From: a virus
DNA length: 27,976 nt
Virus record (IMG/VR): IMGVR_UViG_3300030331_000269
Coordinates: 1 to 27,976 of that record
Strand: one strand, 5' to 3'
The translations under genes and the position numbers were made by a program. Of this stretch, positions 1,104 to 26,352 are shown piece after piece. The notes under the pieces were generated by a model, which was not told the DNA's origin, searched no databases, and worked only from the letters and a program-made list of their open reading frames with translations. How positions within the stretch are numbered: the first letter of the stretch is position 1; the number at the start of each line of letters is the position of its first letter.

Positions 1104-3104
1104 ATGGCGTATATTAAACTTAATACATTTGGAGGCAAAGCCCCTAGAATATCTCCTAGACTATTAGGTGATACTCTTGCCCAAACTGCAACTGATGTAA
1201 ATTTAGAAAGTGGGCGTTTAGTTCCTATAACAGATAATTCTACAGTAGACCCTTCTAATGGTGTATCTACCTTAGCTAATACAACTAAGCAAACCATATT
1301 TAAATATACTGACAGTCCAGAACGTTGGTTACAGTTTGATGAAGATGTAGACGTCGTGCGTGGCCCCATAGCCGGGGACACTAACGACACGATCTATTGG
1401 TCAGGTCAATCTTTCCCTAGAATGGGCAGAAGTGACATTATTTTAAATAGTGCTCCTTTTCCTAGTGCTTTTTTTAGATTAGGTGTACCAGCTCCGACGG
1501 CTGCTCCAACCGTAGCTGTAGCTGCCCCAACTCAACTAAATGCAACTATAACTACAGCAAGCGGTTCTGGAACTATTACAGTAACCACTGCTAGTGCACA
1601 TAATGCTTCTGTAGATCAGTTTGTTACTCTTGCAAGTTTTGGTGCTACAAATGGACTCACTGCGGACGAAATAAATGGCGACTTTAAAATAGTATCTACC
1701 CCCTCTGGTACAACTTTTACGGTAAAAACAAGCGGTTCAGCTACGGGGGATGGTACTTCAAATTCTGTTACAAATGGCGCTTCTTTTAATGGACCATCAG
1801 ACGCTAATGTAGATTTTGAAACAGCTTATGTTTACACTTTTGTAACTGCTTATGGAGAAGAAGGGCCGCCATCTCCAGCATCTACTGTAGTAACAACAGA
1901 TGATAATCAAATTGTAAATTTAAGTAACTTAGAAACTAGTAGTGCAAAATCAAATACTAACTTATCTAAAAAACGTATATATAGATCTAACACCGGTTCA
2001 AATACTACCGCATTTCAGTTTGTTGCAGAGGTAACTCTTGCTACAACTACTTATCAAGATACTTCAAATAATAATGAATTAGCAGAAATAATACCTTCTA
2101 CTACTTGGATTGCGCCACCAGATGATGATACCTCTTTATATCCAGACGGACCTATGAAAGGCCTGTGTGCTTTACCTGGGGGTGTGTTTGCGGGTTTTAC
2201 AGGCAAACGTATATGTTTTAGTGAAGCTTTTTTACCTCATGCATGGCCAGTAGATTATAGGTTAACTTTAGAAGAAGAAATAGTAGCTATAAAAGTGGTA
2301 TCTAATGGTGTGTTAGCTACAACAAAAGGAGTTCCTTATCTAATAACGGGTTCTGACCCGTCTACTATGACTGCAATTCGTATAGAAAGTGCACAACCAA
2401 ATTTAAATAAAAGGTCTATGGTAGACATGGGACAATTTGTTATATATGCAAGCCCAGACGGATTAATTGCTGCCGCAGGCACAACTGTACGAAATTTAAC
2501 AGAACAAATTATCACTCCAACTCAATGGCAAGCTAATTATTATCCTGCAACTATAACTGGGTTTATGTGGGAAGAAAGGTATGTTGGTTTTTTTGATAGA
2601 GGTAGTGGTTCTCCTAGGTATGGAGGGTTTATATTTGATCCAAGAGCTGAGAATGGAACAAGTTTTGTAGATTTAGATGCAAGTGGACTTATACGTGGTG
2701 GCCACACAGATCCGGACGACAGTCAATTATATTTAATTATAAGCAACACGATTAAAAAATTTCAAGGCAGTAATACTAATTTAACTTTCAATTGGAAATC
2801 AAAAGAATACGTTACACCAAGACCTACAAGTTTTGGGTTCGCAAAAGTAAATGCAGAAACTTACCCCGTCAGAATAAAAGTATACGGGGACGGTAGCGTT
2901 ATATATAACGCTGTTATAGCATCCTCTGGTAGTGCTTTTACTGTAACAGGCACTACGCCTAGTTTTAGTGCTACCGCTATAACCGAACCTATGGTTCGTT
3001 TGCCAGCTAGTGTTCATAAGACGTTTGCAATAGAAGTAGAAGGAGCGACTATTGTTAATGAAATATGCATAGGAGAGTCTATAGGCGAATTAAGAGAAGT
3101 CTAA
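1104..3104 (+). CDS. Large virion (tail) structural protein
   Basis: The product is 666 aa. The N-terminus (FGGKAPRISPRLLGDTLAQT) is typical of a phage virion protein family I have seen next to tail-fibre genes. Residues about 140-230 are Ser/Thr/Gly-rich beta repeats. Residues about 240-310 look like a fibronectin type III-type domain (YVYTFVTAYGEEGPPSP). Residues about 345-560 contain conserved blocks such as CALPGGVFAGFTGKRICFSE and PHAWPVDYRLTLEEEIVA, which suggest a propeller-like or beta-rich head. No catalytic motif is evident. The gene sits between the endolysin and a J-like tail tip gene and ends in a TAATG overlap with it. Tail-tip, nozzle or stabilisation roles are all possible; exact function is unresolved. 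Confidence 0.8.
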   Translation: MAYIKLNTFGGKAPRISPRLLGDTLAQTATDVNLESGRLVPITDNSTVDPSNGVSTLANTTKQTIFKYTDSPERWLQFDEDVDVVRGPIAGDTNDTIYWSGQSFPRMGRSDIILNSAPFPSAFFRLGVPAPTAAPTVAVAAPTQLNATITTASGSGTITVTTASAHNASVDQFVTLASFGATNGLTADEINGDFKIVSTPSGTTFTVKTSGSATGDGTSNSVTNGASFNGPSDANVDFETAYVYTFVTAYGEEGPPSPASTVVTTDDNQIVNLSNLETSSAKSNTNLSKKRIYRSNTGSNTTAFQFVAEVTLATTTYQDTSNNNELAEIIPSTTWIAPPDDDTSLYPDGPMKGLCALPGGVFAGFTGKRICFSEAFLPHAWPVDYRLTLEEEIVAIKVVSNGVLATTKGVPYLITGSDPSTMTAIRIESAQPNLNKRSMVDMGQFVIYASPDGLIAAAGTTVRNLTEQIITPTQWQANYYPATITGFMWEERYVGFFDRGSGSPRYGGFIFDPRAENGTSFVDLDASGLIRGGHTDPDDSQLYLIISNTIKKFQGSNTNLTFNWKSKEYVTPRPTSFGFAKVNAETYPVRIKVYGDGSVIYNAVIASSGSAFTVTGTTPSFSATAITEPMVRLPASVHKTFAIEVEGATIVNEICIGESIGELREV

Positions 3105-6071: not shown

Positions 6072-6522
6072 TATAGTAGGAGCAGTCGCTCCAACATTAG
6101 GAACTGCATTAGGTGGACCCTTTGGTGGTATGGCAGGAGATGTTATATCAAAAGTATTAGGAGTAGAAAACAACCCTAAGTCTATAGAACAAGCATTAGC
6201 AAATGCTACGCCTGAACAGTTAATTGAAATTAAAAAAGCAGAAAAAGAATTTGAAGCTAAAATGAAAGAGCTTGATGTTGATTTGTACGATTTAGAAGCT
6301 AAAGAAAAACAACACGCACGAAACACATTTAGTAAAGATTGGACAGCTAGAATTATAGGTATAGCCATGGTTGGTGGTTTTCTTGGTTATATTTTCCTCG
6401 TGACTCTCCAACCACCAGAACAGAACAGTGAAGCCCTAATTAATTTGGTTTTAGGTTATCTCGGTGGCCTAGCATCTGCAGTGATATCATTTTACTTTGG
6501 GGCTTCCAATAAACAAGACTGA
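6043..6522 (+). CDS. Three-TM holin (GTA-type holin family)
   Basis: The product is 159 aa from a TTG at 6043, or 156 aa from the ATG at 6052. The AAGGAGG at 6024-6030 favours the TTG (12-base spacer versus 21 for the ATG). The N-terminal Gly/Ala-rich segment (VGAVAPTLGTALGGPFGG) is the first weakly hydrophobic helix. A charged coiled coil covers about residues 47-92 (EQLIEIKKAEKEFEAKMKEL). Two strong TM segments follow, at about 104-121 and 131-152. The HARNTFSKDWTARI-x-G spacing and overall pattern match the GTA_holin_3TM family. It would form inner-membrane holes that let the lysozyme out. The stop overlaps the next ATG. Confidence 0.85.
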   Translation: MENMKKLLGNIVGAVAPTLGTALGGPFGGMAGDVISKVLGVENNPKSIEQALANATPEQLIEIKKAEKEFEAKMKELDVDLYDLEAKEKQHARNTFSKDWTARIIGIAMVGGFLGYIFLVTLQPPEQNSEALINLVLGYLGGLASAVISFYFGASNKQD

Positions 6523-6872
6523 TGCAAGACATCATAACTGTTATACAACAAGTAGGCTTTCCTATAGCAGCAGCTATTGGTCTTGGTTGGTTTATATATA
6601 AACTTATAATGCGTATTGTTGACGGTATGGAGACCAAACTAGATACCGTTGATGAAAAAGTAGAGGGTCAAATTGCAGCTATTGAAGAGAGACTTGGCAC
6701 GAAACTTGACTCACAACACGGTATTTTAGTGGCTTTGATAGATAGAATACGTAGTTTAGACAATGAGATTATTAGACAAGATACGCTTATAAAGACTATA
6801 CTAGGAGTACCTCAACTTATAGATAGCAACAAAATTGCTAAGGCGGATAGAGATGACCAAAGGAAAGACTAA
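6522..6872 (+). CDS. Membrane-anchored coiled-coil protein, holin-like
   Basis: The product is 116 aa, starting inside the holin stop codon (TGATG), so probably coupled to it. Residues about 10-30 form a single TM helix (GFPIAAAIGLGWFIYKLIM). The rest is one long charged coiled coil (VDEKVEGQIAAIEERLGTK... RIRSLDNEIIRQDTLIKTI). This N-terminal TM plus cytoplasmic coiled coil resembles BhlA/UviB-like holin-associated proteins. It might tune holin timing, or belong to the following curli-type module. No catalytic motif is seen. Confidence 0.7.
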   Translation: MQDIITVIQQVGFPIAAAIGLGWFIYKLIMRIVDGMETKLDTVDEKVEGQIAAIEERLGTKLDSQHGILVALIDRIRSLDNEIIRQDTLIKTILGVPQLIDSNKIAKADRDDQRKD

Positions 6873-7371
6873 GAAAGAAATAGAAGCAATAGAGTTAGAA
6901 AAATATAGACTTACAATAAGTTTAGTTTTTATAGGTTTTGTATTATTTATTGCAATTATTGCAATGAATGTAAAAGCAGATCAAATAGTTCACGGTTTTA
7001 AAAACCCTAGTTTTAGTGGCGTAGGTACCAGTTCACATTATCTTACTATTGAAAACCAAGAATTTAATCGTAAAGAAAATATTAAAGCAGAACTAAAAGC
7101 TTATAAAGAACAACTTAAAAGAGATGCAGAAAATACTACCCTTGCTAGATTTATACGTAACTTAGAGTCTAGAATATATGCACAGCTATCAAGACAACTT
7201 GTAGATGCTTTGTTTGGAGATACGCCTCAAACACAAGGTATCATTGAACTAATGGGCAACACTATTGAATACAACGTGAGTGAAGATGGTACAATGATAA
7301 CTCTAAAGATAACAGACCCAGATGGCAATACTACAGAAATTACGGTACCTATCGGTTCTTTTACTTTCTAG
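6853..7371 (+). CDS. csgF: CsgF-like curli assembly/anchoring protein
   Basis: The product is 172 aa from the ATG at 6853, preceded by AAGGCGG; an upstream in-frame TTG at 6835 is less likely. Residues 1-19 are charged, 20-38 form a long hydrophobic signal/anchor, and a plausible signal peptidase site is VKA-DQ (42/43). Directly after it comes FKNPSFSG (49-56), the hallmark CsgF motif that in E. coli plugs the CsgG pore (FRNPNFGG). The C-terminal GNTIEYNVSEDGTMITLKIT and EITVPIGSF strands also match CsgF. In the curli system CsgF binds CsgG and nucleates fibres at the surface. The highly charged 19-residue N-terminal extension is unusual. It overlaps csgG by 50 bases in another frame. Confidence 0.88.
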   Translation: MTKGKTKKEIEAIELEKYRLTISLVFIGFVLFIAIIAMNVKADQIVHGFKNPSFSGVGTSSHYLTIENQEFNRKENIKAELKAYKEQLKRDAENTTLARFIRNLESRIYAQLSRQLVDALFGDTPQTQGIIELMGNTIEYNVSEDGTMITLKITDPDGNTTEITVPIGSFTF

Positions 7372-8134
7372 TTGCGCGTCACTATTATTTGACCCCATAG
7401 AAAATAACATAGCTCCGATACGGAAAATCGAGTCAGCACAGATAGAAGAGCTAGTTATAACAGACTTGCAGGAGTGCCGTACGCCTGAAAGAAAACCAAC
7501 TGTAGCTGTGTACGGAAACGCATTTACTGACCAAACAGGCCAAAGACTTAGCAATTCTATGTATGCTAGCTTCTCTACAGCTATAACCCAACAACCTAGC
7601 GCCTATCTTATTAAAGCTCTTAAAGACGCATGTAAACAAAACGGTGGTTTTTTTACTGTAGTAGAAAGAGGTGGATTAGATAACTTAACTAAAGAACGCC
7701 AGATAATACGTAGTGGTAGGACTGAAAACAAAGACAATACAAAGATAGGTACTTTGTTATTTGCAGGTTTATTACTAGAGGGGTCAGTAGTTTCATATGA
7801 ATCTAATGTAACATCTGGTGGCGCAGGTGCTAGATATTTAGGAATTGGTATATCTAAAGCTTATAGAACAGATTCAATAACCATACAATTACGTCTTGTG
7901 TCTGTAAACTCAGGCCAAGTGCTACTTGAAAAATTAGTATCTAAGACCATTCTTAGTGTATCATTAACAGACGACGTGTTTCGTTTTATCGAAGCTGGTA
8001 CTGAATTAGTAGAGATAGAAAGTGGTGTAGTGCGAAATGAGTCTGGAGGACTTGCTTTGCGTTCTGCTATAGAAACAGCCGTATTAGAAATAATCAAGGA
8101 GGGTGAACAAGCTGGATATTGGAGTTATAAATGA
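7322..8134 (+). CDS. csgG: CsgG-like curli secretion channel lipoprotein
   Basis: The product is 270 aa. The signal peptide ends in a lipobox, LSSC, with Cys18 as lipidation site; Ala follows, consistent with outer-membrane sorting. Family hallmarks are abundant: AVYGNAFTDQTGQ, SFSTAITQ (Phe84 aligning with the E. coli constriction Phe56), VVERGGLDNL-x-x-ER-x-IIR, EGSVVSYESNVTSGGAGARY, VSKTILSV, VFRFIEAGTELVE and a C-terminal LRSAIETAVLEI helix. E. coli CsgG forms a nonameric outer-membrane pore that secretes curli subunits; length here is near its 277 aa. The Tyr51 position of the constriction is not obviously conserved. The gene lies between csgF and a curlin-repeat gene, with 50- and 4-base overlaps. 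Confidence 0.93.
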   Translation: MAILQKLRYLSVLLLSSCASLLFDPIENNIAPIRKIESAQIEELVITDLQECRTPERKPTVAVYGNAFTDQTGQRLSNSMYASFSTAITQQPSAYLIKALKDACKQNGGFFTVVERGGLDNLTKERQIIRSGRTENKDNTKIGTLLFAGLLLEGSVVSYESNVTSGGAGARYLGIGISKAYRTDSITIQLRLVSVNSGQVLLEKLVSKTILSVSLTDDVFRFIEAGTELVEIESGVVRNESGGLALRSAIETAVLEIIKEGEQAGYWSYK

Positions 8135-8829
8135 AAAAACTTTTACCCTTACTGTTAGTTGGTTTTTTGTATGCTGATAATGAAGTGTATGTCGACCAGT
8201 CCGGGAATAACGCAAACATAGACATAGAACAGTTAGGTTCGTCTAACATCATTGGTGGACTAGACGCTGTTAGTGGTACTATGACCGCGCTCGATCTTGA
8301 CGGTTTAAATCTTACTTTAGATATAAATCAAATAGGTAGCTCAAACAAATTCTTAGGTGATATTTATGGAGATAGCATTACAGGATTTTTTGAATTTGAT
8401 GGAGATAGCAATATATTTGATATACAAGTAGACCCAACTAATACATATGGCGCAGATTCAGGTAACTACAATGTAGACGTAACTGGTTCTAGTAACGACT
8501 TTAATTTAAACGTTGGTACTAATGCTTTAGCTTCGACACTTGACTTAGACTGGATAATTAATGGAGATAGCAACACGTTTGATTTCGATATTGATTATGA
8601 CCTAGGTACATCTTATGTAGATGTCGACGGGGACTCTAACTCAATAACATTTGACGGAAGTGGATATCAAAATGGATATTTCTATCTTGACCAAACAGGC
8701 AACAGCAGGACTTTTAATATTACACAATCATCTACATTGGCTAGTGACTGGCTTAAGATTTTGTCTACTGGCAATAATGGCACTGTGTGTGTTGTTCAGA
8801 ACGACGGCGGTACAAGCACAAGCTGTTAA
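8131..8829 (+). CDS. Secreted curlin-repeat (CsgA/CsgB-like) protein
   Basis: The product is 232 aa. The start overlaps the csgG stop (ATGA). A signal peptide (MKKLLPLLLVGFLYA) is followed by about eight imperfect repeats of roughly 20-28 residues built on '[DQ]-x-[TS]-G-[DSN]-[SN]-N-x-x-x-[FIL]', for example VDQSGNNANIDIEQLGSSN, IIGGL, INQIGSSNKFLG, FDGDSNIFDI, VTGSSNDFNL, INGDSNTFDF, VDGDSNSITF and LDQTGNSRTFNITQ. This is the curlin amyloid-repeat pattern, with Gln/Asn stacking positions often replaced by Asp. Two cysteines (220 and the terminal 232) could form a C-terminal disulfide. It is the likely cargo of the neighbouring CsgG. It is very acidic, which differs from E. coli CsgA. Confidence 0.82.
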   Translation: MKKLLPLLLVGFLYADNEVYVDQSGNNANIDIEQLGSSNIIGGLDAVSGTMTALDLDGLNLTLDINQIGSSNKFLGDIYGDSITGFFEFDGDSNIFDIQVDPTNTYGADSGNYNVDVTGSSNDFNLNVGTNALASTLDLDWIINGDSNTFDFDIDYDLGTSYVDVDGDSNSITFDGSGYQNGYFYLDQTGNSRTFNITQSSTLASDWLKILSTGNNGTVCVVQNDGGTSTSC

Positions 8830-9856
8830 TATTGGAGACATATCTGAGCTAAACGGCTCTGCTGAAGTAATACGAGATAAGCCTTATGGGGCTGAATTAG
8901 ACTTTGGCATTCAACAAATGGACGATGTACGTACTAGTACGGGTCGTGTAGGAATTACTTTCCTGGACAACTCTGTTGTACGATTAACCGAACATTCTAA
9001 GTTAGTTATTACCGAATACATATTCGATCCTGACCCCTCAAAAGGCAAAATGGCTTTGCAGTTTGCCAGTGGTACTGCTAGGTTTGTAACTAGTAGATTA
9101 GGTAAAATAGATAAGAAAAACATTAGGTTGTCTACACCTACTGCAGATATAGCGATTAGGGGAACTGATTTTACCTGCACGGTAGATGAACTAGGCCGCA
9201 GTTTAATAATATTACTTCCAGATGAAAACGGCATATCTAGTGGTGAAATACTTGTAACTACCGCAACAGGTAGCGTTACTCTTAATAAACCTTATCAAGC
9301 TACTACCGTGGAAGTATGGGAAACTGCACCTACTAAGCCTGTAATACTTGACCTTACTTTAGATATTATAGATAACATGCTTATTGTTACACCTCCGGAC
9401 GAACAAAAGTTATCCACAGATTCATCCACAACGTCCGTAGCAGATAGCGGAGCTATATTAGATATAGATTATTTAGAGTTTAATGAGCTAGAACAAGATT
9501 ATTTAGCTGAAGATACTTTAGAGTTTACAGAACTCGATATAAACTTTTTAGACATAAATTTCTTTGAAGATTTACTAGCAATAATAGAAGAAATAGATGA
9601 ATTAGATACTAAAAAATTAACTGTAGGCACTTCGATACAAGGCACAGAAATAGGACAAGACTTAGAAACGCAGATAATAACTTTATTGCAAGGAGAACAG
9701 ATCGCCTTTCAAAGAAAAGTTAATCAAAACGCACAGTTGACGGTAAACAGTGCCCAAGGTTACACTATTATTTTAATACAGGATGGTAAATACCAGCAGA
9801 TTGTAGTTAACGGTGGAGGTAATTCTACTATTACAATTAAACAGGGGTCAGGATGA
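8744..9856 (+). CDS. Secreted FecR-domain protein
   Basis: I chose the GTG at 8744 (370 aa) because it opens a good signal peptide, MTGLRFCLLAIMALCVLF with cleavage near VQA-QA. ATG 8777 and TTG 8651 are alternatives, and no strong Shine-Dalgarno decides. It overlaps the curlin gene by 86 bases. Residues about 28-180 are a FecR domain: GDISELNGSAEVIR, DDVRTSTGRVGITFLDNSV, LTEHSKLVI, LSTPTADIAIRGTDFTCTVD. Residues about 225-305 are an unusually Asp/Glu-rich helical stretch. The C-terminus is beta-rich and ends VVNGGGNSTITIKQGSG, which resembles a curlin repeat. FecR proteins of this class are often encoded beside CHASE2 cyclases and are thought to signal to them. The stop overlaps the cyclase ATG (ATGA). 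Confidence 0.85.
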   Translation: MTGLRFCLLAIMALCVLFRTTAVQAQAVNIGDISELNGSAEVIRDKPYGAELDFGIQQMDDVRTSTGRVGITFLDNSVVRLTEHSKLVITEYIFDPDPSKGKMALQFASGTARFVTSRLGKIDKKNIRLSTPTADIAIRGTDFTCTVDELGRSLIILLPDENGISSGEILVTTATGSVTLNKPYQATTVEVWETAPTKPVILDLTLDIIDNMLIVTPPDEQKLSTDSSTTSVADSGAILDIDYLEFNELEQDYLAEDTLEFTELDINFLDINFFEDLLAIIEEIDELDTKKLTVGTSIQGTEIGQDLETQIITLLQGEQIAFQRKVNQNAQLTVNSAQGYTIILIQDGKYQQIVVNGGGNSTITIKQGSG

Positions 9857-11604
9857 AGAAATGGATTTCGTTACTTAGCATACCAATACTATGCATACCT
9901 TTACTATTTAATTGGCAAGCCTTAGAAATACTTAAATTAAAAACTTTTGACGCTTTAGTTACAACACCAGAACCTAGTGACATGTTTGTTACACTAGATA
10001 TAACAGAGCAAGACCTAGCTTTGTCTGGTGGATGGCCTTACCCACGTCAAGATCTTGCACATATTCATAAAAACCTCATAGATGCAGGAGCCTGGGGCGT
10101 GGGTTGGGTCGTCGCTTTTCCACAAGAAGATAGGTTTGGAGGAGATGATGATTTTGCATACATGTTATCAAATACAGCAAGTGTTATTGCAATGTTTGAA
10201 AATGATACAGGTGAGTATCCGCCCACTACAGGCACTGTTATATTAGGAGATGGCTTACCCATACAAGCAATAGAATCTAAAGGAGTAGTAAAAAACACAG
10301 AAAAACTTGCAAGTGCAACTAGTCAGGGCCTCGCTGTTGCACGAACAGATGTAGATAACTTAGTAAGACGTTTACCTTTGTTGCTACAAACGCCAGATGG
10401 TTGGACACCTTCTTTTGGTATAGAAGTAATGAAAATAGTATCTGGTTCCGATACTTACATTATTAAATCTGAACAAGGCCAAATAGTAGAACTTACTTTG
10501 CCTAACTATGCACAAATACCAGTAGATAATATTGGAAGACGTTGGGTATCATGGATTGATACACCAACTACTACACTACAAGAAATGGACGTAAAAGACA
10601 GGTTTGTGTTTGTAGGAGTAACAGCAAAAGGGGTGATGCCGCAAATAGCCACTTCCGTTGGTTTAAAATATCCACACCACGTGCAAGCAGCTTTAGCAGA
10701 AAGTATGACTGTAGATGTGCCTGCAATACCTGGTCTTTCTTTGTTATATGAATTACTTATATTAGTAGGGTCTTTATCATTATTAATACTTATAGTGCGT
10801 AATGCACCTGTTATAGGTTCTATGGCGGGGGTTGGGTTTTTATATGCTGTGCAAGCTGCAGCTGCAGTATATCTTGCACGAAATAATGTACTTATAGATT
10901 TTAGCTATAGCACAGTTAGTATGACACTTTTATCTGTACAAGAATTTTGGTTAAGATTTGGAGAACAATATAAATTAAGACAACAAATAAAGAAACAATT
11001 CGAACATTACTTAGATCCTAGGCAAGTTGCACAATTACAAAAAGACCCCAGCTTGTTAAAGTTAGGTGGAGAAAAACGCACATGCACGTTTCTTTTTACA
11101 GATGTTAGAGGTTTTACAAATTTATCAGAGAAACTGCCACCTGAACAAGTGACTGAAATAATGAACAAAGTGCTTACTGCACAAGTACAATGTATTCAAG
11201 CACATGGGGGTATGGTTGATAAGTTCATAGGCGACGCATGTATGGCCATCTTTAACGCCCCCCTCGATATTGATGAACATGAACAACGTGCTGTCGCCTG
11301 TGCCCAAGATATGCGTACGGCTATTCGTATGTTGCAAAAAGAATTACCTGAACCAATAGCTATAGGCATAGGTGTAAATACGGGCGAAGCTGTAGTTGGT
11401 AATATGGGTAGTAACACGAGGTTTGATTACTCTGCTATAGGAGATGCAGTAAATGTAGCTGCACGATTAGAGAGTGCAACAAAAGGTAGAGGTGTAGATT
11501 TATTGATTGGAGAAACTACAGCATTAAAAGTACAAGATTTACATTTAATGCCATCTATAAAAGTAAAAGGTAAAGAAGAACCTTTAAAAGTGTATACTAT
11601 ATAA
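9853..11604 (+). CDS. CHASE2-domain transmembrane class III adenylate cyclase
   Basis: The product is 583 aa. An N-terminal TM (about 4-20) leads to a periplasmic CHASE2 sensor (about 25-290: LKTFDALV, GGWPYPRQDLAHIHKNL). Three TM helices follow (about 295-315, 319-341, 346-363), then a linker helix and a class III cyclase domain (about 405-583). Catalytic residues look complete: metal-binding Asp417 (FTDVRGFT) and Asp461 (KFIGD), adenine-specifying Lys457 and Asp525 (RFDYSAIGD), and transition-state Asn534 and Arg538 (NVAARLE). The product should therefore be cAMP from ATP. Length and order match bacterial CHASE2 cyclases. It is the last large gene of the csgF-csgG-curlin-FecR array. A membrane receptor cyclase is very unusual cargo for a phage. 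Confidence 0.93.
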   Translation: MKKWISLLSIPILCIPLLFNWQALEILKLKTFDALVTTPEPSDMFVTLDITEQDLALSGGWPYPRQDLAHIHKNLIDAGAWGVGWVVAFPQEDRFGGDDDFAYMLSNTASVIAMFENDTGEYPPTTGTVILGDGLPIQAIESKGVVKNTEKLASATSQGLAVARTDVDNLVRRLPLLLQTPDGWTPSFGIEVMKIVSGSDTYIIKSEQGQIVELTLPNYAQIPVDNIGRRWVSWIDTPTTTLQEMDVKDRFVFVGVTAKGVMPQIATSVGLKYPHHVQAALAESMTVDVPAIPGLSLLYELLILVGSLSLLILIVRNAPVIGSMAGVGFLYAVQAAAAVYLARNNVLIDFSYSTVSMTLLSVQEFWLRFGEQYKLRQQIKKQFEHYLDPRQVAQLQKDPSLLKLGGEKRTCTFLFTDVRGFTNLSEKLPPEQVTEIMNKVLTAQVQCIQAHGGMVDKFIGDACMAIFNAPLDIDEHEQRAVACAQDMRTAIRMLQKELPEPIAIGIGVNTGEAVVGNMGSNTRFDYSAIGDAVNVAARLESATKGRGVDLLIGETTALKVQDLHLMPSIKVKGKEEPLKVYTI

Positions 11605-11850
11605 ATGCCACGTAATTATAAAAAAGAATATAAAAACTACCAAGGCAGGCCTGAGCAAAAGAAACGTCGTGCTCAAAGAAATAGAGTTAGACGTTTAATG
11701 CAAAGATTAGGAAAAGTTAAAAAAGGTGACGGTAAAGATGTGCATCATAAAGACGGAAATCCTATGAATGCTAAAAGATCTAATTTAAAAGTAGTTAAAC
11801 GATCAAAGAACCGTTCTTTTGCCCGAAATCGTAAAGCTGGCAAAAAATGA
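11605..11850 (+). CDS. Small basic HNH-like protein
   Basis: The product is 81 aa, its ATG following directly on the cyclase stop. It is very rich in Lys/Arg. Residues 46-64 (VHHKDGNPMNAKRSNLKVV) resemble the core of HNH_3-type homing endonucleases, with His47/48, Asn55 and Asn60 as possible metal and catalytic residues. There is no DNA-specificity domain and no intron nearby. Short phage proteins of this form are often annotated as HNH endonucleases. It may be a nicking nuclease used in packaging or simply a DNA-binding relic. It ends the plus-strand gene run, facing the minus-strand operon. Confidence 0.75.
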   Translation: MPRNYKKEYKNYQGRPEQKKRRAQRNRVRRLMQRLGKVKKGDGKDVHHKDGNPMNAKRSNLKVVKRSKNRSFARNRKAGKK

Positions 11851-23062: not shown

Positions 23063-24157
23063 TTAGTTTATTTCAATAACCTCGCCGAATGGGGCGTCGG
23101 TTGAGTTAGTTGTAACCCAGAGAACAGGGAAGTCTGGCTCATCGCCAAAGTCACTAGACTCTAGATCGGTTAAGTATACAAGAGCCCTAACATTTGGATG
23201 GTGCTCTTTAATATAGGTGATAACAGGCTCGAACGCCGTCCCACCTCTACCTTGGTATGTGATTTTAAGTGGTAAAGACTCTCGTGTGTATTCGGTAGTC
23301 TCTTTTACTTCGTAATCACATTGTATAAACTGCACACGCTCAGGATTGAGTTCGTGCAATATATGTGAAGTTTCTGTTGTGAACTGAGTAAGTTCTTCAT
23401 CATTAATAGAACCTGAAGTGTCGACTGCAATAGCAATCTCTTCTAGACAAGGGTTATGTAATGATGGAAGATACATGCCTCTGCCGATGAAACGCCTGTT
23501 AGGTCTGACCCAAGTAAAGTCAGACTTGTTGTTAGCACGCAAGAAACGAGCCAACACAGCTTTCCAATCAACTTTTGCATTAGTTACTTCAGAAATTAGT
23601 GTTTCCATATTACCAGACAGTTTGCCTTGAGCTTTAGCCGCTTCGGCAGCCTGGTGTATGGCTACAGTAAGTTCAGCTTCAATAGCACTATTTTTGCCAA
23701 CCGTTCCGTCTTTGTCAGGATGGTCTAGAACAGCACCACACTTACCAGGGTCCATATGATTAGTATCTTCATCTGGTAGATCAGCGTAAATAGCTTCTGT
23801 AGACATATCATTGTATTCAGGGTCAATCAATCCACCTGACGGCAATATAAAATTCTCTTTAATAAGATGATTGTTAATTGCGTAGTCAGCAGCGATATTC
23901 CATTTTTGAGGTTCGCGTTCTTGCCTACGAGTAATGTGCAGTAAAACCACATGCATAACCTCGTGAGCAAGAAAACCTACTCTTTGAAGTGCAGTTAGAC
24001 TTTCAAACCATTTAGGATTGTAGAACAAATGCACACCGTCGACTGCACCAGTGGGCATGTCGTCACGCTCCACTGGTTTAAGTCTAAGACAAAGAGTGCC
24101 AAAGAATGGATTCTCAAGTATCAATTGAGACCTAGCTTTAATAAATAAGTTATTCAT
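23063..24157 (-). CDS. Metallopeptidase-VWA protein (DUF2201-like)
   Basis: The product is 364 aa. The N-terminal half is a zinc-peptidase-like domain: FLAHEVMHVVLLH carries HExxH (His65, Glu66, His69), with NIAADYAIN (Asp91) as the probable third ligand region. The C-terminal half is a VWA-like domain with a complete MIDAS: AVDTSGS (Asp246, Ser248, Ser250), GGTAF (Thr307) and LTDLESSD (Asp331). This two-domain layout matches DUF2201-type proteins, which pair with MoxR AAA+ ATPases; a MoxR-like gene lies about 1.2 kb upstream in the same operon. In cellular systems such pairs remodel or metallate target proteins. Proteolytic activity here is plausible but unproven. Confidence 0.92.
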   Translation of the reverse strand: MNNLFIKARSQLILENPFFGTLCLRLKPVERDDMPTGAVDGVHLFYNPKWFESLTALQRVGFLAHEVMHVVLLHITRRQEREPQKWNIAADYAINNHLIKENFILPSGGLIDPEYNDMSTEAIYADLPDEDTNHMDPGKCGAVLDHPDKDGTVGKNSAIEAELTVAIHQAAEAAKAQGKLSGNMETLISEVTNAKVDWKAVLARFLRANNKSDFTWVRPNRRFIGRGMYLPSLHNPCLEEIAIAVDTSGSINDEELTQFTTETSHILHELNPERVQFIQCDYEVKETTEYTRESLPLKITYQGRGGTAFEPVITYIKEHHPNVRALVYLTDLESSDFGDEPDFPVLWVTTNSTDAPFGEVIEIN

Positions 24158-25335: not shown

Positions 25336-26352
25336 TTACAATACAACGTTAGCGTTTTTGTTAATCCAGTTTTTAATCGCTGGATGTGATTTAAGATCGC
25401 GATCTCTAGCAAGACAACCTCTAACCAAGACAACTTGATATTCTATTACAAGCTTGTCAGATAGCTTCATGATGTTGTCCATCTTAGATTCTTCCGCTCT
25501 AACCGCAATTGCGTTAGCCAAAGCATATAACAACGCAGGGTTGTCATTACGCTTGTATCTAGTTGGATCCGCAATAATAGCGTCAATATCAGGTAGTTCG
25601 TCTGATATTTCTTTGAACGCAACAAACTCTCCAGCAGCGCCATCGCCAACCAAAGCAGACACACTGTAAAACATTCTGTCTTTGTCAGTGTTTGTCTTTT
25701 GTAGTTTCTTGCTAACCAAAGACCAAGCACGCGGTGTTGGAAAAGCATACTCATCTGGATTGAAGTCCGACAACAGATTCGGTCTGTATTGTATAAACGC
25801 AATAACATCTGAATCAATGTTGTTTTGGTGAGCCCACTTAGTCCAGTCATCAAGAGTAGGTTCTAGCTCGTAGTGTGCTAGCCTGTTTCTGACCGGTGAT
25901 GGCATTTGATACACAGCTGCAGAGTCAGTTAGTCTGTTACCAGCACACAAAATAGCCCAGCCAATAGGCAGTGAATAATCACCGATTTGTCTGTTTAGCA
26001 AAAGTTGCAAGAAAGCATTTTGCGTTGCTGGTGGTGCAGTTGGTAGCTCGTCAATAAACAAGATACCTCTGTCGCCGTCGCGTTCTGCGATCGGAAACAC
26101 ATCTGGAACTGCCCAAGCAGTGTATTTCTGTGCGTCCGCGTCTGCTTGTGTGAGGTAAGGAATACCACGCACATCGACAGGGTCGAACAGATTTGCACGA
26201 AAGTCTATGATATTCATATCAAGGTCTTTCGCGACTTGTGTAGGAATGTCAGATTTGCCAATACCTGGTCCGCCCCAAATCATTGCAGGCGTGCCAGAAA
26301 CAACAGAATCTTTCAGTTCCATAATTAGATTAATTGGATTAATGGTTTGCAT
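25336..26352 (-). CDS. MoxR-type AAA+ ATPase
   Basis: The product is 338 aa. Walker A is GGPGIGKS (27-34), Walker B is ILFIDELPTAPP (Asp101, Glu102), sensor 1 is CAGNR (Asn139), and a probable arginine finger is in PSPVRNRL. The DVRGIPYL and QNAFLQLLLNRQIGDY segments fit the MoxR/AAA_5 group. The 170-residue C-terminal part is a helical lid without other recognised domains. MoxR proteins act as chaperone-like ATPases with VWA partners; the VWA-metallopeptidase in this operon is the obvious candidate. Its ATG overlaps the stop of the upstream membrane gene. Confidence 0.92.
   Translation of the reverse strand: MQTINPINLIMELKDSVVSGTPAMIWGGPGIGKSDIPTQVAKDLDMNIIDFRANLFDPVDVRGIPYLTQADADAQKYTAWAVPDVFPIAERDGDRGILFIDELPTAPPATQNAFLQLLLNRQIGDYSLPIGWAILCAGNRLTDSAAVYQMPSPVRNRLAHYELEPTLDDWTKWAHQNNIDSDVIAFIQYRPNLLSDFNPDEYAFPTPRAWSLVSKKLQKTNTDKDRMFYSVSALVGDGAAGEFVAFKEISDELPDIDAIIADPTRYKRNDNPALLYALANAIAVRAEESKMDNIMKLSDKLVIEYQVVLVRGCLARDRDLKSHPAIKNWINKNANVVL

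Follow-up and report, generated by a model that had tools for sequence, protein, structure and literature searches.

A curli-export cassette linked to a FecR/CHASE2-cyclase pair in a podovirus-like phage lineage

Gene content and organization of the cassette

The DNA analyzed here (the window) is the entire IMG/VR record IMGVR_UViG_3300030331_000269, a linear 27,976-base fragment, in which the rightward strand carries structural and presumed late genes as far as about 11.85 kb, with replication genes on the leftward strand beyond it. A gene cassette in the order TMcc, csgF, csgG, curlin, fecR, and cyclase lies at the 3′ end of this rightward run. Five of these genes, for CsgF, CsgG, a curlin-repeat protein, a FecR-domain protein, and a CHASE2 class III cyclase, form one overlapping run at 6853-11604. 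This gene set, its order, and its span had been proposed from the sequence alone (the sequence-only reading), and were confirmed by Pfam searches and, for curlin, through a homologue in phage HTVC008M; the sixth member of the cassette, TMcc, had been overlooked. The features are as follows.

6522-6872, plus strand: TMcc, 116 amino acids, with one N-terminal transmembrane helix (transmembrane scan) and a coiled coil; overlaps csgF
6853-7371, plus strand: CsgF homologue (Pfam CsgF, 3.9e-16, above the curated cut-off; phrog_35372, 1.8e-42)
7322-8134, plus strand: CsgG homologue, outer-membrane secretion channel (Pfam CsgG, 1.2e-49, above the curated cut-off; lipobox LSSC)
8131-8829, plus strand: predicted secreted curlin-repeat cargo, 232 amino acids, with two conserved C-terminal cysteines
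8777-9856, plus strand: FecR-domain periplasmic protein (Pfam FecR, 5.7e-12, above the curated cut-off)
9853-11604, plus strand: CHASE2 class III nucleotidyl cyclase, 583 amino acids (Pfam CHASE2, 6.9e-27, and Guanylate_cyc, 1e-20, above the curated cut-offs)

The start codons were placed at 6853 (ATG) for csgF, 7322 for csgG, 8131 for curlin, and 9853 for cyclase. For fecR, whose open frame begins at 8651, the most likely start is at 8777, because a signal peptide follows from it. The successive junctions from csgF to cyclase overlap by 50, 4, 53, and 4 bases, the last being the overlap of fecR and cyclase at 9853-9856. Purifying selection acts on all six genes, with ratios of nonsynonymous to synonymous substitution rates (dN/dS) of 0.02-0.29, overlapping stretches included. 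In a promoter scan, the number of sites was no higher than in shuffled sequences.

Linkage of the exporter and sensor genes in viral and bacterial loci

A first set of loci was collected by CsgG and FecR scans of IMG/VR and consists of loci found through their similarity to the window. No violation of the gene order was found among 144 annotated viral loci. Where there was room downstream of csgG, curlin and FecR followed (96/96); where there was room upstream of fecR, all four preceding genes were present (86/86); and the cyclase followed FecR in 101 of the 102 viral loci with room. Further scans with HTVC008M and Melnitz CsgG as queries reached loci whose CsgG was 46-54% identical to that of Melnitz, on contigs of up to 337 kb. 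In these scans FecR came after csgG in 34/34, 14/14, and 41/41 loci with room (89/89 together), and the cyclase was present in 18/19, 9/9, and 37/37 (64/65). Gp23 and a terminase were encoded on the 337-kb contig and phage PHROGs on some of the others; as hallmarks of large contigs, phrog_2, Terminase_6N, and Gp23 were mostly uninformative, and several contigs were called phage according to IMG/VR and PHROG matches. The sequence-only reading had proposed that the genes act as one functional unit and had called for a database search of their order. Far from being rare, their co-occurrence extends over podo-, myo-, and very large phages, and the single unit is strongly supported, given that no viral locus with room lacks FecR after csgG and that nearly all have the cyclase.

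Bacterial curli (type VIII) loci share CsgF, CsgG, and curlin repeats with the cassette, but in contrast to the viral loci FecR or CHASE2-cyclase was found within about 9 kb in 0/36 of them (one bacterial phylum). The cassette is near-universal in these phages, and the linkage of FecR and cyclase to the exporter is virus-specific. In the CsgG tree, the viral sequences lay on one side of a branch with support of 100/99, opposite the 36 bacterial CsgGs. Canonical bacterial curli operons are also described without FecR, histidine kinase (HK), or adenylate cyclase (AC) by Wittmers et al. (PMC9599517). Of 20 alphaproteobacterial proteins among the best-matching relatives of the cyclase, 7 were encoded next to a FecR-domain gene. 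The same adjacency has been reported in Campylobacterota (PMC9239204) and for cyaD1 of S. meliloti (SMc02176/SMc02177), where a CHASE2-less cyclase makes cyclic AMP (cAMP) constitutively (PMC5498481); no curli genes were reported with these pairs. FecR and CHASE2-cyclase are therefore a bacterial pair that predates the cassette, and the cassette joins two modules.

Some loci carried additional genes. Inserts were located between fecR and cyclase in L014, L017, L026, L013, L028, and L065 (L numbers denote loci) with the order kept, and by eye they were cytidylyltransferase-like, FkbM-like methyltransferase, and DNA cytosine methyltransferase-like. Second curlin genes may likewise separate FecR from cyclase without breaking the order. 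In 17 large-phage loci, an additional signal-peptide protein of 500-800 amino acids was encoded within or ahead of the cassette (for example L358:11984-13891, L364:11341-13188, L375:10749-13142, L377:11789-13285, and L394:5635-7533, plus 12 others); it has a barrel-like C-terminus with a final aromatic residue as in outer-membrane barrels, and an F5/8 C domain is present in the L375 copy. Phage-like cassette contigs were binned in Neomarinimicrobiota (L065/L066, PBPT01000002) and Maricaulis (L067, NZMJ01000004) metagenome-assembled genomes, which are likely binning errors. CsgG is also encoded on a 1.5-kb contig labeled ‘Salmonella phage’ (L004, OR851715.1), which is probably bacterial DNA inside a phage record.

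The export genes and TMcc

In E. coli, the curli system additionally contains CsgE, CsgC, and CsgD; CsgE is the gate of the channel, and CsgF is an assembly factor. Among the components of type VIII secretion, the CsgG outer-membrane lipoprotein channel and CsgF were found in the cassette, and CsgE, CsgC, and CsgD had no Pfam match among the cassette genes. The sequence-only reading had described CsgF as a gate, which does not agree with its role in assembly. CsgE, CsgC, and CsgD are likewise reported missing from viral and alphaproteobacterial curli modules (PMC9599517).

CsgF of the window has an N-terminal hydrophobic signal or anchor followed by an F-x-N-P-x-F segment. CsgG matched structures of E. 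coli CsgG at 3.1e-39 (PDB), and the lipobox was present in 111 of 116 sequences. A phage-specific constriction of CsgG, with one extra residue and no Asn compared with E. coli, was considered and rejected because alphaproteobacterial CsgGs have the same.

The curlin of the window contained one Curlin_rpt by Pfam (16.8 bits, below the cut-off of 20.7). In an alignment covering 90% of its length, it shared 33% identity with the gene of HTVC008M that is annotated ‘curlin-associated’. Its AlphaFold 2 model was an all-beta chain (predicted local distance difference test, pLDDT, 85) with no significant match in the PDB. Pairs of csgG and curlin numbered 108 in related loci, and the second cargos of relatives exceeded the Curlin_rpt cut-off; one of them, HTVC008M gp18 (L002:9962-11287, annotated hypothetical), consists of a PA14 domain and curlin repeats.

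TMcc was upstream of csgF in the 100 loci having both genes complete and always within the block in the lineage of the window, with two copies in HTVC008M, Melnitz, and most myo/large-phage loci. No HisKA/HATPase or other domain was found in it above the cut-off (Pfam, NCBIfam); its best PHROG match was a family of unknown function, and a faint match to a holin PHROG was also obtained. Judging from position and copy number, TMcc appears to be the published HK. The position published as ‘histidine kinase’ is thus occupied here by a gene without a kinase domain.

The FecR protein and its curlin-like tail

FecR consists of a signal peptide, the FecR domain, a poorly conserved acidic linker, and a conserved curlin-like tail of about the last 50 amino acids (9704-9853). 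Its model matched PupR and anti-sigma periplasmic domains, including that of a Parabacteroides anti-sigma factor, at E values of 2-6e-4. The periplasmic domain is thus shared with FecI/FecR signaling (Pfam, PupR fold), whereas the anti-sigma domain, membrane helix, and sigma factor are not: the protein has a signal peptide and neither a helix nor a cytoplasmic domain, so it is not an anti-sigma FecR, and searches of the cassette genes and scanned neighbors gave no sigma-factor domain.

A terminal phi-x-phi-x-Q was found in 71/71 FecRs of the podovirus set and 73/74 of the myo/large-phage set (non-redundant), compared with 8-10% in shuffled sequences, and in 89/100 curlins of the myo/large-phage set (shuffled sequences of all three sets, 7-10%); these counts come from related, non-independent sequences and are not probabilities. 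It was absent from five bacterial FecRs inspected. Profile comparison by hhalign with the curlin C-termini of myo/large phages only as query gave an end-to-end alignment with the pooled FecR tails (31.6 bits, 93%; column-shuffled control at most 9.1). By tail set, the values were 91% for podoviruses, aligned alone, 90% for large phages, and 19% for the HTVC008M/Melnitz group, all aligning to curlin in one register. The last two values were obtained with complete frames; in one comparison with unfiltered, partly incomplete FecR frames, the value was 2.8%. The best score of 50-column windows of FecR, cyclase, CsgG, and CsgF outside the tail was 16.4 bits. The resemblance is probably due to homology, or alternatively to convergence on the same strand pattern. 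A curlin-like C-terminus fits periplasmic monitoring of secretion, and through this tail cargo and sensor may be physically linked.

The CHASE2 cyclase

The cyclase matched adenylate cyclase structures down to 3.7e-38, and its catalytic residues D417, K457, D461, N534, and R538 (the metal Asp pair and the purine Lys, Asn, and Arg) were all present; 107 of 108 sequences in the window's wider set retain them. At the substrate site the cyclase has Ser, where the family has Ser/Thr/Asp, which is compatible with ATP. The sequence-only reading had taken cAMP as the output; as a universal statement this is not supported, since Ser replaces the catalytic Asn in 21 of 60 cyclases of myo/large phages (L242-L401), where the output may be weak or different. 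A literature search for a SAR11 cAMP receptor yielded nothing useful. The Melnitz cyclase (L003:11002-13053) also has Ser in place of this Asn. Within the cassette, the distance correlation was highest between FecR and cyclase (0.87). The cyclase of L100 (7650-9395) was 75% identical to that of the window and its csgG just 56%, a sign of recombination inside the cassette.

Phage lineage and neighboring genes

PolA of the window was closest to those of Pseudomonas phages KPP25/phiR18 and Rhizobium phages (33-37%), and the virion gene at 1104-3101 had its closest counterparts in 55-63-kb Vibrio, Aeromonas, and Escherichia phages. Of the window proteins compared with the first 50 kb of the cultured HTVC023P-type phage HTVC027P, PolA alone aligned (25%). 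Membership of the HTVC023P type was accordingly rejected as unsupported, and from this result together with its other closest relatives this marine phage belongs to a podovirus-like lineage separate from that for which the cassette had been reported.

An additional gene was found directly 3′ of the cyclase.

11605-11850, plus strand: HNH endonuclease (Pfam HNH_3, 9.1e-07)

An HNH gene stands behind the cyclase in only part of the loci and is a neighbor outside the cassette. A weakly gene transfer agent (GTA)-holin-like gene precedes the cassette on the late strand. On the minus strand (23063-24157 and 25336-26352), a VWA/metallopeptidase-like protein, widespread in podoviruses, is encoded near a MoxR-type-ATPase-like gene; the two are perhaps a conserved phage pair.

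Discussion

The cassette is of a kind already known, reported in 2022 in SAR11 phages, so that the union of its genes is not new, contrary to what the sequence-only reading had implied. Wittmers et al. (PMC9599517) give the order HK-CsgF-CsgG-CsgA/B-FecR-AC in SAR11 podo- and myophages; they report the full cluster, FecR and AC among its genes, from nine genomes of podoviruses plus myophages, and describe its ocean distribution. The window resembles this type VIII secretion system (T8SS)-FecR-AC cluster of HTVC023P-type phages and pelagimyophages in having a small gene, CsgF, CsgG, a curli repeat, FecR, and AC; in the published cluster a second curli repeat often precedes AC and virus-to-virus transfer is described, and the window has one curlin gene. 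Unlike the published cluster, it belongs to another podovirus lineage, and its gene before csgF is not a kinase. The available text mentions neither CHASE2, nor the bacterial FecR/CHASE2 pair, nor the curlin-like FecR tail. Melnitz and HTVC008M share the order CsgF-CsgG-curlin-FecR-curlin2-AC and differ in being T4-like myophages with a second curlin, two TMcc genes, and cassettes that adjoin replication genes. CsgF and CsgG were recognized by Zaragoza-Solas et al. in pelagimyophages, together with a curli-associated protein (PMC7029224), and by Buchholz et al., who modeled CsgGF of Melnitz (PMC9004378); the fibre subunit genes were not recognized as such in either paper. New here are the other phage lineage, stronger evidence for exporter and sensor as a single unit, and one new testable link between them.

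The explanation tentatively favored, at somewhat less than an even chance, is that curli export, in a virus-specific form, is coupled to a FecR/CHASE2-cyclase sensor of the envelope. Two bacterial systems would have been fused into one virus-specific envelope module. In the first part, a minimal type VIII system, CsgG and CsgF would export curlin to the surface without CsgE, CsgC, and CsgD; in the second, periplasmic FecR would touch the CHASE2 sensor of the inner-membrane cyclase. The curlin-like repeats at the C-terminus of FecR would bind curlin or the CsgG/CsgF channel and so join both parts, and pore occupancy or fibre growth would set the state of FecR and thereby cyclase activity. Its likely use would be to coat or aggregate infected cells late in infection and to alter host physiology via the cyclic nucleotide. 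The stricter form, in which the FecR tail engages CsgG/CsgF or the growing curlin so that the amyloid exporter directly controls the inner-membrane cyclase, is considered somewhat unlikely.

Several observations weigh against the coupled export and sensing. Pfam Curlin_rpt found no FecR tail above the cut-off, a curlin-repeat hidden Markov model was only weakly positive on the tails, and the curlin of the window's own lineage gave no significant hhalign match with them, so the tail as a plain curlin repeat was rejected; the tail is also of low confidence in the predicted model, and the low hhalign value of the HTVC008M/Melnitz-group tails alone counts in the same direction. No cAMP effector gene was recognized within the window, and the replacement of the catalytic Asn has been described above. 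In S. meliloti, the neighboring FecR is dispensable for plant-signal perception (PMC5498481), and Melnitz infection proceeded without clumping in cytograms or transmission electron microscopy (PMC9004378).

The lack of clumping also speaks against an adhesion cassette, by which sticky infected cells would capture siblings or particles while FecR and cyclase merely tune expression or host state. This idea, proposed as ‘sibling capture’ (PMC7029224), would suit the PA14-curlin second cargo of HTVC008M and the barrel-like proteins of the 17 large-phage loci, one with an F5/8 C domain, but it leaves the near-constant retention of FecR and cyclase unexplained and is regarded as unlikely. For CsgGF of Melnitz, a role in lysis was proposed (PMC9004378); here the outer-membrane pore would help to depolarize or permeabilize the envelope with TMcc as a holin-like partner, in keeping with the faint holin match of TMcc and the weakly GTA-holin-like gene ahead of the cassette. 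However, curlin and FecR are never missing, the holin-like gene is unlinked in other loci, CsgG is located in the outer membrane, and the Melnitz and HTVC008M cassettes adjoin replication genes, which makes lysis control quite unlikely.

Superinfection exclusion, in which an exported fibre or occupied pore would mask phage receptors, would agree with phage-controlled surface export machinery and its near-universal retention; it does not need the cyclase and appears very improbable. That FecR is an iron-responsive curli regulator, as in the published annotation, is hardly credible: it would account for the Pfam FecR domain, but the signal peptide, the missing cytoplasmic anti-sigma domain and membrane helix, the lack of a sigma-factor domain among the cassette genes and scanned neighbors, and the CHASE2 cyclase as constant partner all argue otherwise.

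Since 2020, the presence of curli genes in marine phages has called for an explanation. On the basis of the viral tie between exporter and FecR/CHASE2 (0/36 in bacteria) and the curlin-like tail, the ‘partial curli operon’ becomes a testable sensor model, and two annotations, ‘histidine kinase’ and ‘iron regulator’, are called into question. If the trans-envelope sensor is true, it would be a phage-rebuilt FecA-FecR-like chain with a curli outer-membrane part and a cyclic-nucleotide output, and its conservation would extend from podoviruses of 60 kb to a phage of 337 kb.

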